Source: Reyranella massiliensis 521 (lineage in GTDB: Bacteria > Pseudomonadota > Alphaproteobacteria > Reyranellales > Reyranellaceae). Taken from it: DNA of 64,000 nt. Both the position numbers and the translations under genes were made by a program. The stretch spans positions 4,282,045 through 4,346,044 of the forward strand of contig NZ_HE997181.1 in assembly GCF_000312425.1 (NCBI RefSeq), given 5' to 3'. The notes beneath the pieces are model-generated. The model saw only the letters and a list, made by a program, of their open reading frames with translations, did no database searches and had not been told where the DNA came from. How positions within the stretch are numbered: position 1 is the first letter of the stretch; the number at the start of each line of letters is the position of its first letter. Below are positions 6,821-23,662 of the stretch, piece by piece.

Positions 6821-6899
6821 CCCGCCTCCGGTCAGGACCGGATGTCGGGTGGACCTCGCTCCCGGCGGCTCCCCGCGCCAGGACTCGGATGCGGCACTT

Positions 6900-7080
6900 T
6901 CGACGGCAGGTTTCCTGGCTCTCGGCTCTCCGCCTCAGGCCACCTTCCCGGTTTCCCAGTGGTATCAAGGCCTTCGGCTTGCCGATTACAGTTGCGGGGG
7001 CAGCCTCGGATTAGGGCGAAATGCCCTTCACCGTGTTCCCTTTTGATCCCCTTGCGGGGCACCGTCCCGCGCTTGATACG
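6900..7080 (-). promoter_or_regulatory. Cobalamin riboswitch
   Basis: The minus-strand sequence carries the diagnostic blocks in order: GACGGTGCCCCGC near the 5-prime end, CAAAAGGGAACACGGTG, the GCCCCCGCAACTGTAATCGG core near 6982-7001, CCACTGGGAAACCGGGAAGG, and the B12 box AGCCAGGAAACCTGCC at about 6903-6919. Binding of adenosylcobalamin by this aptamer normally reduces expression of the downstream genes. Here these are hupE, DUF1636, cobW, cobN, cobG and cobH. It lies inside the gap between the two hupE-like genes, so only the downstream one is controlled by it. Confidence 0.95.
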
Positions 7081-7125
7081 GGCCGCGGTGAAGCGTCGTC
7101 AACGGGAATCGAGCCGCAACAACCG

Positions 7126-16713: not shown

Positions 16714-17427
16714 TCAGGACTCAGGGATCGCGCGGTCGATCTGCCAAGTCGCCGCGCTGACATGCGGCTCGAGGCTGAGTCGGCCCACGATCTGCTCCAG
16801 CGCCGCATCGTTGCGCTTCGCCGCCACCGCCTGCGCCGTCACCGTCACCTTCGACGTATCGGGGATGTCCTCGCTATCGAGGCGTCGCAGACCGAGGCCC
16901 GCTTGCGACAGCGCATGCAGGAGCAGGGACCGCATATGCGCTTCCTCGGCGCCGCGACAGGCGATCTCGACCGTGTAGTAGGTCTCCGAGTCCGTCGAGG
17001 TCAGCAGCCTGAAGTTCATGCGCCGCACCAGCGGCCGCAGGAAGAGGTTGGTGCCGATCACGAAGACCGCGGCGAGGATGCTCGGCCCGCCATGGCCCGC
17101 GCCGGCCAGGGTGCCGACCATGGCCGAACACCAGAGCGTCGCTGCGGTATTCAGCCCATGGACATTGACGCCCTCGCGCAGGATCACGCCCGCGCCCAGG
17201 AAGCCGATGCCGGTCACAACCTGGGCGGCGACGCGCGTCGGATCGCCCTGGCCGACCAGACCGGAAAACACGACGAAGCCCGCCGCGCCCAGCGCCACGA
17301 GGGCGTTGGTGCGCAGGCCGGCCATCTTCTGATGCCACTGCCGCTCGAAACCGATCGCAGAGCCCAGCACCAGGGCAAGGGTAAGACGCAGGGCGGGATC
17401 GCCCAGGGCCACAAAATCGAAGGACAT
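16714..17427 (-). CDS. MgtC/SapB family membrane protein
   Basis: A 237-residue protein. The N-terminal part has about four to five membrane segments with the family core LGSAIGFERQWHQKMAGLRTN and GIGFLGAGVI. The C-terminal part from roughly residue 150 is soluble and resembles an ACT-like domain (TYYTVEIACRG...VTVTAQAV). MgtC proteins are linked to growth at low magnesium and to inhibition of F-type ATP synthase; this member may be closer to the SapB branch. It appears to be transcribed alone. Confidence 0.88.
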   Translation of the reverse strand: MSFDFVALGDPALRLTLALVLGSAIGFERQWHQKMAGLRTNALVALGAAGFVVFSGLVGQGDPTRVAAQVVTGIGFLGAGVILREGVNVHGLNTAATLWCSAMVGTLAGAGHGGPSILAAVFVIGTNLFLRPLVRRMNFRLLTSTDSETYYTVEIACRGAEEAHMRSLLLHALSQAGLGLRRLDSEDIPDTSKVTVTAQAVAAKRNDAALEQIVGRLSLEPHVSAATWQIDRAIPES

Positions 17428-18811: not shown

Positions 18812-20560
18812 TCAGGTCAGGCGGAAGCGTCGTTCGGCGAGGCGATAGAGCGGTCGCCAGACCAGACGGTTGCAGGCGACGACCATGATCGACATGACGG
18901 CGATACCGAGGACGACGCGCGGATAGTCCCCCGCCTCCGTCGCCTGCGCGATGTAGGCACCGAGCCCGGTCGCCTCCAGCTTGGTATCGCCCCAGCTCGC
19001 GACCTCGGCCACGATGCTGGCGTTCCACGAACCGCCCGACGCCGTCAGCGCCCCCGTCACGTAGTAAGGCAGGATCCCCGGCACGATGACCTTCCGCCAC
19101 CATTGCCAGGAGCGCAGCCGAAACAGCACCGCCACTTCGCGCATGTCCGTTGGAAAGGCACTGGCGCCCGCAATGACGTTGAACAGGATGTACCACTGCG
19201 TGCCCAGGATCATGAGCGGGCTGAGCCAGATGTCCGGATCGAGCTTCCACGACACGATGGCGACGACGGCAATCGGAAACAACACGTTGGCCGGGAAGGC
19301 CGCCAGGAACTGTGCAATCGGTTGCACGCGCGTTGCGATCCCCAAGCGCAGGCCGATCCAGACGCCGACCGGGACCCAGACGAGGCTGGCAAGCGCGATC
19401 AGCACCGCCACGCGCAGCAACGTGAGGAAGCCGAGGCCTACCGCCTCCGCAACGTCGTCGAGCGTCAGCGTCTGATCGGCGAACATCACGATCCGCCACA
19501 ACGCCCAGGCGACGGCGATCAGCACCACAGCCAGCCACAGGACATCGGCACGCCGCCCCGCTCCGGCCGGCGCCACCCGCTGCGCCGCCGGCGCACGACG
19601 CGGTGCGACGGCTGCGACGCACGCCGACAGGGTGCCGATCAGAGCAGAGATACGACGGATCAGGCGGCCGCGGCGCCAGAGGTCATAAACCCACGAGCGC
19701 GGCCGTTGCTGTGCGGCGGTCTGCTCGAAGCGGAACTTGTCTGCCCAGGCCACGATGGGGCGAAACAGGAGCTGGTCGTAGACCAGGATGACGGCCGCCA
19801 TGGTGCCGACGGCCATCAGCACGGCCGCGACATCTCGTTGCGCAATGGCAAGCGCCAGCCAGGAGCCGATGCCCGGCAGCTTGATCGTGGTATCGCCCAC
19901 CGTGATCGCCTCCGAGGCGACGACGAAGAACCAGCCGCCCGACATCGACATCATGGTGTTCCAGATCAGGCCGGGCGCGGCGAACGGCACTTCGAGGCGC
20001 CAGAAGCGCAGCCACGGCGAGAGGCGGAAATGACGCACCGCCTCGTCGAGATCGCCCGGCACGGTGCGCAGGGATTGGTAGAAGCTGAAGGCCATGTTCC
20101 AGGCCTGGCTGGTGAAGATGGCAAAGATCGCCGCGCACTCCGCGCCGAGCTGGCTTTGCGGAAACAGGCCGATGAAGAACACGACAGTGAAGGAAAGAAA
20201 CCCCAGCACCGGCACGGACTGCAGGATGTCGAGGGCCGGCAGGATCACCAGCTCGGCACGGCGGCTCTTGGCTGCAAGCGTCGCGACGACGAAGGTGAAT
20301 ACGAGAGACGCCAGGATGGCGGCGAACATGCGCAGGGTCGTGCGCAGCGCATAGTCAGGCAGATTGGCCGGATCGAGCGTCACGGGATCGCTGGCGAGCC
20401 ATGCTGCCGGCGCGACCATCCCCCGCGCGCCATGCGCGATGGCGACGAAGACTCCGGCGATCAGGATGAAGATCGCGAGATCGTGGAAATTGGGCCACAC
20501 CCGCGCTCCGCCCAAACCGAGCGGCGCCGGAAGTCGGCTCTTTTCCCTGCGGTTGTCCAT
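18812..20560 (-). CDS. Fused double ABC permease (nitrate/sulfonate type)
   Basis: A 582-residue inner-membrane protein made of two permease domains in tandem. The first spans about residues 70-280 and the second about 350-570. Each ends in an EAA-type loop for the ATPase: [23 protein letters not shown] in the first and [19 protein letters not shown] in the second. Usually two separate subunits form a dimer, so this gene encodes the complete pore. Its GAGGGGG ribosome binding site overlaps the stop of the short leader ORF at 20571-20624, so its translation should depend on leader translation. Confidence 0.9.
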
Positions 20561-20570
20561 GTTTGCCCCC

Positions 20571-20624
20571 TCAGCTCGCCGCCGCGCGGCAAACTAGAGG
20601 ACAGATGTTGCGGATAGCCTTCAT
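20571..20624 (-). CDS. Leader peptide upstream of the fused permease (copy A)
   Basis: A 17-codon ORF reading MKAIRNICPLVCRAAAS. It has a perfect GGAGG site at 8 bases from the ATG, and that site is locked in the nested hairpin at 20626-20670. Its TGA overlaps the permease ribosome binding site, and the permease ATG follows after 10 bases, a layout typical of translational coupling or attenuation. Its start region and first residues resemble those of the leader ORF at 21427 (M-x-x-[IV]-R-[KN]-I-x-P-L). Two of 17 residues are cysteine. Function is inferred only. Confidence 0.6.
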   Translation of the reverse strand: MKAIRNICPLVCRAAAS

Positions 20625-20625
20625 C

Positions 20626-20670
20626 CGCGCCTCCTTCAGATCGGGTCGTTGGTTCGACCCGGGAGGCGCG
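20626..20670 (-). promoter_or_regulatory. Nested hairpin hiding the leader ORF ribosome site (copy A)
   Basis: On the plus strand the arms are CGCGCCTCC (20626-20634) and GGAGGCGCG (20662-20670), a perfect 9-base outer stem. Inside it are CGGGTCG (20642-20648) and CGACCCG (20655-20661), a perfect 7-base inner stem with a 6-base loop. Seven unpaired bases (20635-20641) sit on one side only. In the minus-strand RNA the 3-prime arm of the outer stem is the Shine-Dalgarno sequence of the 17-codon leader ORF. Opening the outer stem would permit translation. Confidence 0.7.
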
Positions 20671-20869
20671 ACCGGAGGAGAGCCTAGAGCGGCAGGCTAG
20701 TCCTCGGGATCTCGATCTCCCGGGCAAGAATCCCGGCCGTCGTCACGGTCGCAGAGCGACTGTGGCAATCGGACGAGGTGTTGCTAGATCGCGGGTTCAT
20801 CGAATCCCTTACGGTTGCTTTCGCGCGGCCCAATACGCCCGGACCAACGAGCGGTCAAGCGCAGCAGCG
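20671..20869. other. Gene-free leader region between csoR-like gene and copy A hairpin
   Basis: No credible ORF is present on either strand. Several short inverted repeats occur: AGCCT/AGGCT (20681-20698), CGGGA/TCCCG and CCGGG/CCCGG in 20704-20736, so the RNA upstream of the nested hairpin would be structured. A promoter-like sequence on the minus strand lies at 20830-20858. Confidence 0.5.
20830..20858 (-). promoter_or_regulatory. Predicted promoter for the leader and ABC importer
   Basis: On the minus strand TTGACC (complement of 20853-20858) and TATTGG (complement of 20830-20835) are 17 bases apart. The first box matches the vegetative -35 consensus at five of six positions; the second is a weak -10. 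It lies just after the csoR-like stop and would give a leader of roughly 200 bases before the copy A ORF. Read-through from the csoR-like gene is an alternative source of transcript. Confidence 0.35.
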
Positions 20870-21154
20870 TCACTTGAAGTACGAATGAACGATCTCGACG
20901 AGTTCCTCTGCCGCCTGCACGCGCGTGTCGTCGCGCTTGGACGTGCGATCGACGAAGTTCTCCAGGATATGGTCCTCGATCACCTCAGCGATGAAGCCGT
21001 CCAATGCGCCGCGGCACGCCGCCGCCTGCTGCAGCACGGATGAACAGCTCGCGTCTTCCTCGAGGCGCCTTTCGACGGCATCGAGCTGCCCCCTAATGCG
21101 CCGCACACGCATCAGGAGTTTTCGCTTTTCCTTTTCCCGCAGGGTGTCCGACAT
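20870..21154 (-). CDS. CsoR/RcnR/FrmR-family transcriptional repressor
   Basis: A 94-residue all-helical repressor of the DUF156 family, with the RRIRGQLDAVERRL first helix. The conserved pair is C37 and H62 (25 residues apart, as C35/H60 in RcnR and FrmR); a further C47 is present. The position four after the histidine is N66, not the Cys of CsoR or His of RcnR, and there is no His3. So it is not a typical copper or nickel/cobalt sensor; a formaldehyde- or sulfur-type sensor or a divergent metal sensor is possible. The start MSDTLREKEK at 21154 was chosen because upstream codons cross the operator-like sequence. Confidence 0.88.
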   Translation of the reverse strand: MSDTLREKEKRKLLMRVRRIRGQLDAVERRLEEDASCSSVLQQAAACRGALDGFIAEVIEDHILENFVDRTSKRDDTRVQAAEELVEIVHSYFK

Positions 21155-21164
21155 TTCGCTTGAT

Positions 21165-21188
21165 CCTATCCTGGAGGGGGGTATATAC
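21165..21188. promoter_or_regulatory. Operator-like G-tract for the CsoR/FrmR-type repressor
   Basis: The sequence CTATCCTGGAGGGGGGTATA starts at 21166. A run of six G flanked by A/T-rich TAT and ATA half-sites is the known layout of CsoR, RcnR and FrmR operators. It lies 19 to 33 bases upstream of the repressor ATG, which suits autoregulation. Whether it also governs the rightward transcript towards the porin cannot be told by reading alone. Confidence 0.55.
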
Positions 21189-21377
21189 GCGACGTCGGCG
21201 CGGCCTGTCCAATTGCCGGACGTCACGCCGGATCCACCCACCCGCAAAGGTCCCGATGAACCCGCGATCTAGCAGCAACTCGATAGAAGGACACAGTCGT
21301 CGCGCGACTGTTTCCGATGTCGACGCCGGCATGAGCGGCGGCGTGGGTTTGCGAGGGCCGGCCTGACCTCCTCCTGA
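21189..21377. other. Gene-free region between the repressor and the copy B leader
   Basis: No supported gene lies here. A perfect hairpin, ACAGTCG/CGACTGT with a 5-base loop, occupies 21293-21311 and is followed by only a short T run, so it is not a convincing terminator. The rightward promoter for the copy B leader should lie in this stretch, but no clear -35/-10 pair was recognised. Confidence 0.4.
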
Positions 21378-21427
21378 TCCGCGCCCCTGCCGGTCGGTGC
21401 AACCGATCTGATTGAAGGAGGCGCGGA
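21378..21427 (+). promoter_or_regulatory. Nested hairpin hiding the leader ORF ribosome site (copy B)
   Basis: The arms TCCGCGCC (21378-21385) and GGCGCGGA (21420-21427) pair perfectly over 8 bases and enclose an inner stem GGTCGGT (21392-21398) with ACCGATC (21402-21408), 7 pairs with one G-U and a 3-base loop. The outer 3-prime arm covers part of the GGAGG site and the A of the start codon of the ORF at 21427. Layout and the sequence GATCTGA...AGGAGGCGCGGATGA are shared with copy A on the opposite strand; copy B has four extra bases before AGGAGG. Confidence 0.65.
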
Positions 21428-21558
21428 TGACCAACGTCCGCAAGATCAGCCCACTCGCATTTCCGGGCATCCCCCTCTCGCCTGCCACTGGCGGGTGCGT
21501 GCCGACGGCCGCCTGGAGTGCGTCTGGAAACAGCTGCCAAAGACGAACAGCGACGTGA
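21427..21558 (+). CDS. Leader ORF upstream of the double-barrel porin (copy B)
   Basis: A 43-codon ORF beginning MTNVRKISPLAFPGIPLS, with a GGAGG site held in the copy B hairpin. The first ten residues share M-x-x-[IV]-R-[KN]-I-x-P-L with the copy A leader. After about residue 20 this frame becomes poor, while the -1 frame gives a protein-like stretch (CHWRVRADGRLECVWKQLP from 21483). So either this is a short leader that ends at 21558, or the original product was longer and continued in the other frame through 21683. The porin ATG lies 121 bases after the stop. Confidence 0.5.
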   Translation: MTNVRKISPLAFPGIPLSPATGGCVPTAAWSASGNSCQRRTAT

Positions 21559-21679: not shown

Positions 21680-23662
21680 ATGAAGAAGGCAGTCTGGTCG
21701 ACACACAGGGTTCTGGGAGGCCTCGCGGCAGCCGCGACGGCGTTCGGTGCCCTGTCCGCCCGGGCGGCCGATCCGGAACCTGCACGGTCCGGCTTCTATG
21801 TCGGCGGTCATGTCGGCTACCTGTTCGGCAACGCGACGGCGACCTTCGCCGATCCGATCGGCGTCGAGACCTCGGGCGGTGCATCGCCCTACGGCACCTT
21901 TTTCGGCGGCGTACAGGCGGGCTACGAACACTACTTCCCGTCGCACTGGATGCTCGGCCTCGAAGTCGACATGTCCTTCCCTAGCGCGGAGGATCTGGCG
22001 CAAGTCCTGTCCTACCGCGCGACGGCCGCGGGAACGGCCAACCAGCAGCTCGAATATCTCGCGAGCCTGCGCGGTCGCATTGGCTACGGCATCGGCCCCT
22101 GGACGCCCTTCGTCACCGGCGGCATCGCCTGGGCAAGTACCCGGTCCAGCCGTACGGACCTCACCACCGGCAACGAGGATGCAAGCCCCGGCAATGTCCG
22201 GGCGGGTTACATTCTGGGGGCCGGCGTCGACTACAGGCTCGACTCGAACTGGTCCGCGCGCGCCGAATATCTCTATACCAGCCTGCCGCTCAACGGCTTC
22301 GTCTTCGCCACGCCGGCCCGCTACGATTCACTCTACGACCTGCATCGCATTCGCCTCGGCCTGAACTACAAGTTCGGCACAAAGGAAGAAACCAAGGCCG
22401 AGCGCCCCGATCGTGGATTCGGTTCGTGGGAGATCCACGGCCAGACGACCTTCATCTTTCAGGGCTATCCGCCGTTCAACGCCCCCTACTCCGGCGCCAA
22501 CAGTCTGCCCCCCGAGGGCCAGAGCCGCGAGACCTGGACAACCTCGGCCTTCCTCGGCCTTCGGCTCTGGCGGGGCGCGGAGCTCTACTACAATCCCGAG
22601 CTGCTGCAGGGTTTCGGCGTTGCCAACACGACCGGCGCCGGCGGCTATCCCAATGGCGAGGCGCAGAAGTCCAACTTCCCCTACCCGCGCTACAACACCT
22701 CGCGGCTCTTCCTGCGCCAGGAGATCGGCCTCGGCGGCGAACGCGAGAAGGTCGAGAGCGACTACGGCCAGCTCTCGGGCGAGCGGGACGTGTCGAGGGT
22801 CACGCTGCAAATCGGCAAGTTCTCGGTGAAGGACGCCTTCGACGGCAATATCTATGCCGAAGATCCCCGCATGGATTTCCTCAACTGGTCGATCTGGGCC
22901 TCGGGCGCCTTCGACTATCCCGCCGATCGCCTCGGCCTCACCTGGGGCTTCATGGCCGAACTCAATCAGGCCAACTGGGCGCTACGCGCCGGCTACTTCC
23001 TGGTGGGCAACGAGCCCAACGCCAACACCTTCGACCTCGCGCTCTTCTCGCGCGGCGGCTATGTCGGCGAACTCGAACTGCGCTTCCGGCCCTACGACCG
23101 TCCCGGAGCCATTCGTTTCGGAACCTGGATGAACAGCGTCTTCTCCGGCTCCTACAACGAAGCCGTAGCATTGGCCGTCGCAAATGGCGTGACCGCCGAC
23201 GAAACGATTGGCCAGACACGACGCGGCCGAACCAAGTTCGGCTTCTACGTCAACCTCGAGCAGGAGCTGACCGACGACATCGGCCTCTTCAGCCGCTTCA
23301 GCTGGAACAACGGCAAGTCGGAGATCGTGGCCTTCACCGATATCGACGCCAGCCTGTCGCTCGGCCTGTCGATCAAGGGCACGCGCTGGGGCCGCGAACA
23401 GGATCGCATCGGCATCGCCGGGGCGCTGAATTCGATCTCGGGCGATCACAGCAGTTTCCTGGGCGCCGGCGGCCTCGGCGTCCTGGTGGGCGATGGCGCC
23501 CTCAGCTACGGCTCCGAAGGAGTGGTCGAGGCGTACTATGCCTTTCAAATCGCCAAGGGCATCGTCGCCACCGCCGACTACCAGCTCCTGGTCAACCCGG
23601 CCTACAACGCCGTGCGCGGCCCGGTGCATGTCTTCAGTGGCAGGCTGTCCGCACGCTTCTGA
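21680..23662 (+). CDS. Outer-membrane porin fusing an Omp25-like barrel to an OprB-like barrel
   Basis: A 660-residue protein with a signal peptide ending ARA before ADPEP. Residues about 38-233 look like an eight-stranded Omp25/Omp31-type barrel (FYVGGHVGYLFGN...GLNYKFGTK). Residues about 249-660 look like a carbohydrate-selective OprB porin (SWEIHGQTTFIFQGYPPF...VHVFSGRLSARF), ending in the aromatic residue expected at an outer-membrane barrel terminus. Each part is about the full length of its family. The start ATG at 21680 has AAGGA upstream. It is preceded by the copy B leader, so it is probably regulated with the ABC importer to the left. Confidence 0.85.
   Translation: MKKAVWSTHRVLGGLAAAATAFGALSARAADPEPARSGFYVGGHVGYLFGNATATFADPIGVETSGGASPYGTFFGGVQAGYEHYFPSHWMLGLEVDMSFPSAEDLAQVLSYRATAAGTANQQLEYLASLRGRIGYGIGPWTPFVTGGIAWASTRSSRTDLTTGNEDASPGNVRAGYILGAGVDYRLDSNWSARAEYLYTSLPLNGFVFATPARYDSLYDLHRIRLGLNYKFGTKEETKAERPDRGFGSWEIHGQTTFIFQGYPPFNAPYSGANSLPPEGQSRETWTTSAFLGLRLWRGAELYYNPELLQGFGVANTTGAGGYPNGEAQKSNFPYPRYNTSRLFLRQEIGLGGEREKVESDYGQLSGERDVSRVTLQIGKFSVKDAFDGNIYAEDPRMDFLNWSIWASGAFDYPADRLGLTWGFMAELNQANWALRAGYFLVGNEPNANTFDLALFSRGGYVGELELRFRPYDRPGAIRFGTWMNSVFSGSYNEAVALAVANGVTADETIGQTRRGRTKFGFYVNLEQELTDDIGLFSRFSWNNGKSEIVAFTDIDASLSLGLSIKGTRWGREQDRIGIAGALNSISGDHSSFLGAGGLGVLVGDGALSYGSEGVVEAYYAFQIAKGIVATADYQLLVNPAYNAVRGPVHVFSGRLSARF

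Follow-up and report, generated by a model that had tools for sequence, protein, structure and literature searches.

Paired leaders with a short upstream ORF and a Shine-Dalgarno-burying hairpin before an ABC permease and a porin of Reyranella massiliensis: a possible lock on divalent-metal uptake

In the genome of Reyranella massiliensis 521, a fused ABC permease (18812..20560, minus strand) and a double-barrel porin (21680..23662, plus strand) are each preceded by a leader with nested hairpins, copy A and copy B, respectively. Both lie in the 64,000-nt stretch of contig NZ_HE997181.1 analysed here (the window). Are the two leaders one element, and what would such an element control? A preliminary description had proposed a common cis-acting element that hides the Shine-Dalgarno (SD) sequence of a short ORF, with ligand, temperature or peptide-driven ribosome pausing as the means of control. 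As described below, the common element holds: the copies are homologous, the element is conserved in other genomes and its outer stem covaries. The candidate sensing part and the range of genes served had to be redrawn.

Architecture of the two leaders

Copies A and B are homologous over about 240 nt, with a local alignment score of 136, whereas 300 shuffles gave 43 at most, and by their sequences they are paralogues of one cis-regulatory module. The alignment opens with an SD sequence followed by ATGAACCCGCGATCTAGCA. The leader boundaries given previously were too short, as the leaders extend about 120–130 nt further upstream, each with a conserved short ORF, here uORF1 (ORF1). In copy A, uORF1 (20684..20800, minus strand) has 38 codons (MNPRSSNTSSDCHSRSATVTTAGILAREIEIPRTSLPL), the stop codon TAG and the SD sequence TAAGGG ahead of its ATG, and contains an inverted repeat, CACAGTCGC TCT GCGACCGTG (20744..20764, minus strand). 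In copy B, uORF1 (21256..21366, plus strand) has 36 codons (MNPRSSSNSIEGHSRRATVSDVDAGMSGGVGLRGPA), the stop codon TGA and the SD sequence AAAGG. In both, the uORF1 stop lies 59–60 nt before the start of a second short ORF, ORF2.

By fold and by sequence, the SD of ORF2 is buried alike in the two copies, in an outer stem around an inner stem. In the copy A hairpin (20626..20670, minus strand), a perfect outer stem of 9 pairs, CGCGCCTCC (20670-20662) with GGAGGCGCG (20634-20626), encloses a 7-nt bulge ATCTGAA and an inner stem of 7 pairs, CGGGTCG (20661-20655) with CGACCCG (20648-20642); the SD GGAGG sits in the 3′ arm of the outer stem. The outer stem of the copy B hairpin (21377..21428, plus strand) is longer: 21377-21388 pairs with 21416-21428 in up to 12 pairs with one bulged A, taking in also the A and U of the ORF2 start codon, and the inner stem GGTCGG/CCGATC begins at about 21391. 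The minimum free energy (MFE) of the 65 nt ending at the start is −31.9 kcal/mol for A and −31.4 kcal/mol for B, corresponding to z scores of −3.2 and −3.9 against dinucleotide shuffles, of which 1/300 and 0/300 reached an equally low value. The nested hairpins are thus present in both copies. A fully paired SD together with an MFE of −29 kcal/mol or lower was found in only 2 of 92 strong-SD ORFs (at least 100 aa) sampled from 360 kb of the same genome. Two further pairings were considered and dropped: a long-range contact between CCGCG at the uORF1 start and CGCGG at the SD, absent in genomes G020 and G046, and an alternative start-codon hairpin GCGGAT/ATCCGC, which shows no compensation in G020.

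In copy A, ORF2 is a remnant of 17 aa (20571..20624, minus strand; MKAIRNICPLVCRAAAS), and its TGA overlaps the permease SD, confirming from the sequence what had been claimed. It has equal length in G035 and G037, and in G038 it has 26 aa and overlaps the permease start. An ORF2 that ends on the permease SD is what translational coupling would be expected to look like. ORF2 of copy B (21427..21558, plus strand) has 43 aa (MTNVRKISPLAF...) and is a 1-nt frameshift of a gene for a small protein of the CRW family, C-R-W-x4-[DN]-G-R-L-x-C-x-W, mostly of 55–80 aa: in alignment one base is lost relative to G035, G037 and G038, whose frame runs on to C.W..DGRLECIW and into the porin. In these three genomes (loci L080, L081 and L082) ORF2 has no stop before the porin, an in-frame read-through which would make the porin signal peptide internal. 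CRW proteins gave no match against Pfam or NCBIfam; intact CRW ORF2s occur in G020, G023, G057, G046b, L149, L156 and others. The motif M-x-x-[IV]-R-[KN]-I-x-P-L, reported as shared by the two peptides, is indeed common to A and B, but it is the N-terminus of this family, of which A keeps a truncated member and B a frameshifted one. Because ORF2 is degenerate in both copies of the window genome, copy B may be decaying.

Occurrence in relatives and covariation

A model-based search of related genomes, as suggested in the preliminary description, recovered homologues of the leaders. An RNA model built without the A copies (R1) finds all four of them with E values from 7e-5 to 1e-10 (1.4e-9 for copy A of the window), and new leaders in G057 (E 2e-9) and G023 (E 5e-7). 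A further copy in G046 (E 2.4e-4) was accepted on its surroundings, which include uORF1, ORF2 and the operator, since other matches of like score lie inside ordinary ORFs and the score alone is not decisive at that level. Matches in G022, G002, G005 and G020:C205 were rejected, being inside longer ORFs with no surrounding uORF1 or ORF2. A pattern search with the SD and peptide core reached only 4 of 121 genomes; the wider spread came from the RNA model. Furthermore, the ORF2 protein motif, sought in a set of one genome per species (about 85,000 species), led to L149 and L156, where the module is complete, as well as to L157, from an Acetobacteraceae MAG, where ORF2 and an Nramp gene follow a weaker hairpin (z −1.8). 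Among 385 genomes of the class, the uORF1 motif had one match outside the genus, and a second RNA model (R2) three, in or across ordinary ORFs without the module; all were judged to be chance.

Altogether 18 copies of the module were found, in 13 genomes that belong to Reyranella or to other alphaproteobacteria; three copies have a divergent hairpin. The module precedes an OprB porin, the fused ABC permease, an NRMT-like Nramp, or a CRW gene alone. G035, G037 and G038 carry both copies, arranged as in the window. The arrangement for common control of importer and porin, as first proposed, is seen in these four Reyranella genomes, which are close relatives; in other genomes the leader stands before a porin, before an NRMT-like Nramp or before nothing but a CRW gene. 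G020 and G046 also have the porin leader, though their stems have diverged; in G046 the start codon buried at the place of the ORF2 start is that of the porin itself, and in G023 no transporter gene follows ORF2. Permease homologues in 23 other Reyranella genomes are 71–81% identical, and 20 of the 23 are without the leader. In the other three, G017, G015 and G044, the permease leader has a uORF1 starting MTPRP.......H.RLATV, and the permease SD is covered by a hairpin of another build, with fold z scores of only −1.2 to −1.9.

A uORF1 with an SD is present in all 18 leaders, and every complete copy retains it. Its length is 20–39 aa (only 20–23 aa in G057 and G023), and its stop lies 52–72 nt before the downstream ATG, directly ahead of the hairpin. 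The uORF1 of copy A is kept in 4/4 A leaders and is recognisable in L149 and L156. The core HSRR[AS]T is conserved while the C-termini differ (GLRGPA, GLWRFI, GSRGSA, SYRAN, LGSP, PRTSLPL), which speaks against arrest at the end of uORF1. Differences by codon position number 211/196/313, a mild third-position bias, and the first codons are conserved at the nucleotide level, so that uORF1 is equally likely to be constrained as RNA and as peptide. The dyad within uORF1 is maintained in 13 aligned leaders with partly changed sequence, and G046b has an inverted repeat of different sequence at the matching place.

Because MAFFT places the 5′ arms of the two hairpin types two columns out of register, A- and B-type leaders were tested separately. 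Among five B-type sequences, including G046 and G020, the outer stem has 3 double-compensatory pairs, which come from two divergent sequences, with five of its ten pairs invariant; 93.8% of its cells are paired against 34–47% for slid partners. For nine A-type sequences the values are 96.3% and 35–47%, with one double change only, in the inner stem. With shuffles that ignore relatedness, covariation can be said to back the outer stem moderately. In partition-function folds the SD is largely buried in 18/18 leaders, with a mean unpaired value of 0.12–0.20, but 0.41 in one G046 copy. The leaders have no Rfam match at the gathering threshold and nothing meaningful at E ≤ 10, consistent with the earlier remark that no named riboswitch class was recognised.

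Two other structured leaders were seen during these searches. The sole Rfam match in the window is a cobalamin riboswitch (6888-7081, minus strand; 109.8 bits), which precedes HupE/UreJ-like genes and adjoins CobW-like and cobalamin-synthesis genes. Moreover, G023 (L095/L181) and G046 (L146/L182) have a second leader type with a uORF starting MD[SC]HP and a stem GTTCATCT/AGATGAAC; the SD buried by this stem belongs to a porin in G023 and to a CRW gene in G046.

Transport genes and the CsoR-type repressor

The permease has two BPD_transp_1 stretches by Pfam, and is followed by an ATPase with AAA_assoc_C and then, at the end of the operon, by an MgtC family protein (16714..17427, minus strand; Pfam PF02308, NCBIfam). 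The porin is an OMP_b-brl domain fused to an OprB domain (Pfam). Downstream of the leaders, an OprB porin is found in the window genome, G020, G057 and L149, the ABC operon with MgtC in the window genome, and an Nramp in G046b, L156 and L157, the last with the weaker hairpin. The best PDB match for the Nramps of L156 and L157 is 7qia, which we take to be the Mg2+ transporter EleNRMT; the PDB search itself names only a divalent metal cation transporter. The signature of NRAMP-related Mg2+ transporters (NRMTs) is DxxG in helix 1 and TxxA/T in helix 6 (PMC8806188). All three Nramps have GTTIAPW or GTTVAPW, together with DAGG in L156 and DAGA in L157 and G046b.

Divergent to leader B lies a gene for a metal- or formaldehyde-sensing repressor of the CsoR/RcnR/FrmR family (20870..21154, minus strand; Pfam PF02583, E 5.1e-22), for which NCBIfam ranks FrmR best and RcnR next, both below cut-off. 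Between this gene and the leader is a G tract resembling a CsoR-type operator, TATCCTGGAGGGGGGTATATA (21167..21187). An identical 20-mer is found upstream of leaders in G035, G037, G038, G020, G057 and G023, a near-identical one in G046b and looser variants in L149 and L156; most B-type leaders have a divergent CsoR-family gene with the G tract TATCCTGGAGGGGGGTATAT. No CsoR-type operator was found before copy A. In G023 (L140, 1512-3215, minus strand), the CsoR-family gene has a His-rich CDF-type cation exporter as its neighbour, and the two form a dmeRF-like pair that diverges from the leader.

From the OprB porin, the MgtC-ended ABC operon, the NRMT-like Nramps and the CsoR-family gene, metal uptake is the likely theme, and since the module stands before metal-transport genes in relatives it looks like an undescribed metal-uptake switch. 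One leader would then be common to an inner-membrane ABC importer, an Mg2+-type Nramp and a porin, with an undescribed family of small proteins, CRW, as the usual first product of the locked transcript.

Elsewhere in the genus, 9 of the 23 permease homologues outside the leader-bearing genomes (L021-L025, L027, L028, L030, L031) carry PHO-box-like direct repeats, for example TGTCAT-N5-CGTCAT, about 83–108 nt before the aligned start, and such repeats were found neither in the four leader-bearing permease copies nor in 80 kb of control sequence. This suggests that the ABC system may be under phosphate-linked control there.

A translational lock, its alternatives and known systems

The reading preferred here, to which we give an even chance, is a translational lock on divalent-metal uptake, in which uORF1 would be part of the sensor. 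The module would run from a promoter (in B with a CsoR-type operator) through uORF1, the SD-burying hairpin and ORF2 (CRW gene or remnant) to the transport gene. By default, as far as folding tells, the SD would be buried and ORF2 and the genes coupled to it little translated. We infer that a signal tied to the supply of divalent metal, most likely Mg2+ or another divalent cation, would open the lock, the probable route being uORF1, either by its translation or by the way its RNA folds. ORF2 would then be translated, and in copy A the ribosomes that terminate on it would move on to the permease start, only a few bases downstream; a further layer of control in copy B, at the level of transcription, probably comes from the CsoR-type repressor. 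As candidate for sensing, uORF1, which lies upstream of the hairpin, takes the place of the ORF proposed earlier. With a 30-nt ribosome footprint placed at five uORF1 positions including the stop codon, the SD stays buried in most folding models, so either the real footprint or helicase reaches further, or the RNA structure of uORF1 acts, or another factor opens the stem.

The two main rivals are a hairpin that does the sensing itself and constitutive damping. In the first, the hairpin would be a small riboswitch and uORF1 secondary: a metal ion or metabolite, bound at the inner stem and asymmetric bulge (consensus GGTCGG..CAACCGATCTGA), would alter how far the SD is exposed. Such a riboswitch would account for the well-conserved letters of these parts across porin, Nramp and ABC contexts and for the SD lying within the same element. 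It appears unlikely, given that Rfam is silent even at E 10, that neither loop nor bulge is constant in G020, G046 and the A copies, that folding of the leaders found no alternative structure exposing the SD, and that every complete copy keeps uORF1. Control by temperature finds a stem that appears unlike the usual RNA thermometers, being G+C-rich with predicted energies of −25 to −32 kcal/mol. This very stability, unaffected by modelled ribosomes, would suit a hairpin that merely holds the CRW protein low or imposes coupling without any signal, control being left to the CsoR-type repressor, whose operator is conserved in nearly all B-type loci. Constitutive damping of this kind is nevertheless a rather poor candidate, as copy A keeps uORF1 and the hairpin though no such operator was found there, and uORF1 with its SD and stop position is maintained in 18/18 leaders.

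That the likeness of A and B reflects a recent duplication only, both copies decaying without current function, would agree with the frameshifted ORF2 of B, the truncated one of A and the many Reyranella without the leader. It is improbable all the same: hairpin and uORF1 are intact at both loci in four genomes, and more divergent genomes carry the module with compensatory changes. The stalling peptide fares slightly worse, and is very improbable. The motif common to A and B had suggested it, and the conserved HSRR[AS]T core might place the arrest in uORF1; the motif, however, begins a protein family of 55–80 aa and lends stalling no support, uORF1 has no conserved C-terminal arrest sequence, and the HSR core coincides with the inverted repeat, which is kept with other letters in G046b.

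More broadly, the module could belong to a new class of metal-responsive leaders, in which CRW, Mg2+/metal transporters and an outer-membrane porin are jointly controlled by a uORF and an SD-locking hairpin. Such leaders would have been copied from locus to locus, and some of them would have come under a CsoR-type repressor; we propose this tentatively, as the less likely outcome. In the collection of papers searched, none describes the module. What is known of metal-uptake leaders with small ORFs comes mostly from a few model bacteria, and here such a leader would occur in a poorly studied alphaproteobacterial lineage.

Among known systems, the closest in layout is mgtQ of Salmonella, a small ORF before mgtB in the mgtCBRU operon, whose translation frees a buried ribosome-binding site; it encodes 8 aa, and the ribosome translating it is destabilised by the codons for Asp2 and Glu5 (PMC8092293). 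In both systems, a metal-transport gene whose operon includes mgtC has its ribosome-binding site sequestered by a stem-loop, and a short ORF precedes that stem-loop (PMC8092293). Unlike mgtQ, uORF1 has 20–39 aa, ends before the stem and as a rule has no Asp or Glu in the first ten or so codons, and its effect is a putative one. The M-box riboswitch of Mycobacterium tuberculosis with the uORF rv1805A is likewise a structured leader, whose translational platform governs a small conserved ORF, again the first product, ahead of a metal-linked operon (PMC12810186), but the present leaders match neither the M-box nor any other Rfam family. Finally, DmeR/DmeF shares with the B-type loci a repressor of the CsoR/RcnR family and a G-tract operator, and in G023 also an adjacent CDF-like exporter, as read from the sequence. 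The repressor here differs in scoring below the NCBIfam FrmR and RcnR cut-offs, and the transcript divergent to it is that of an uptake or CRW gene.
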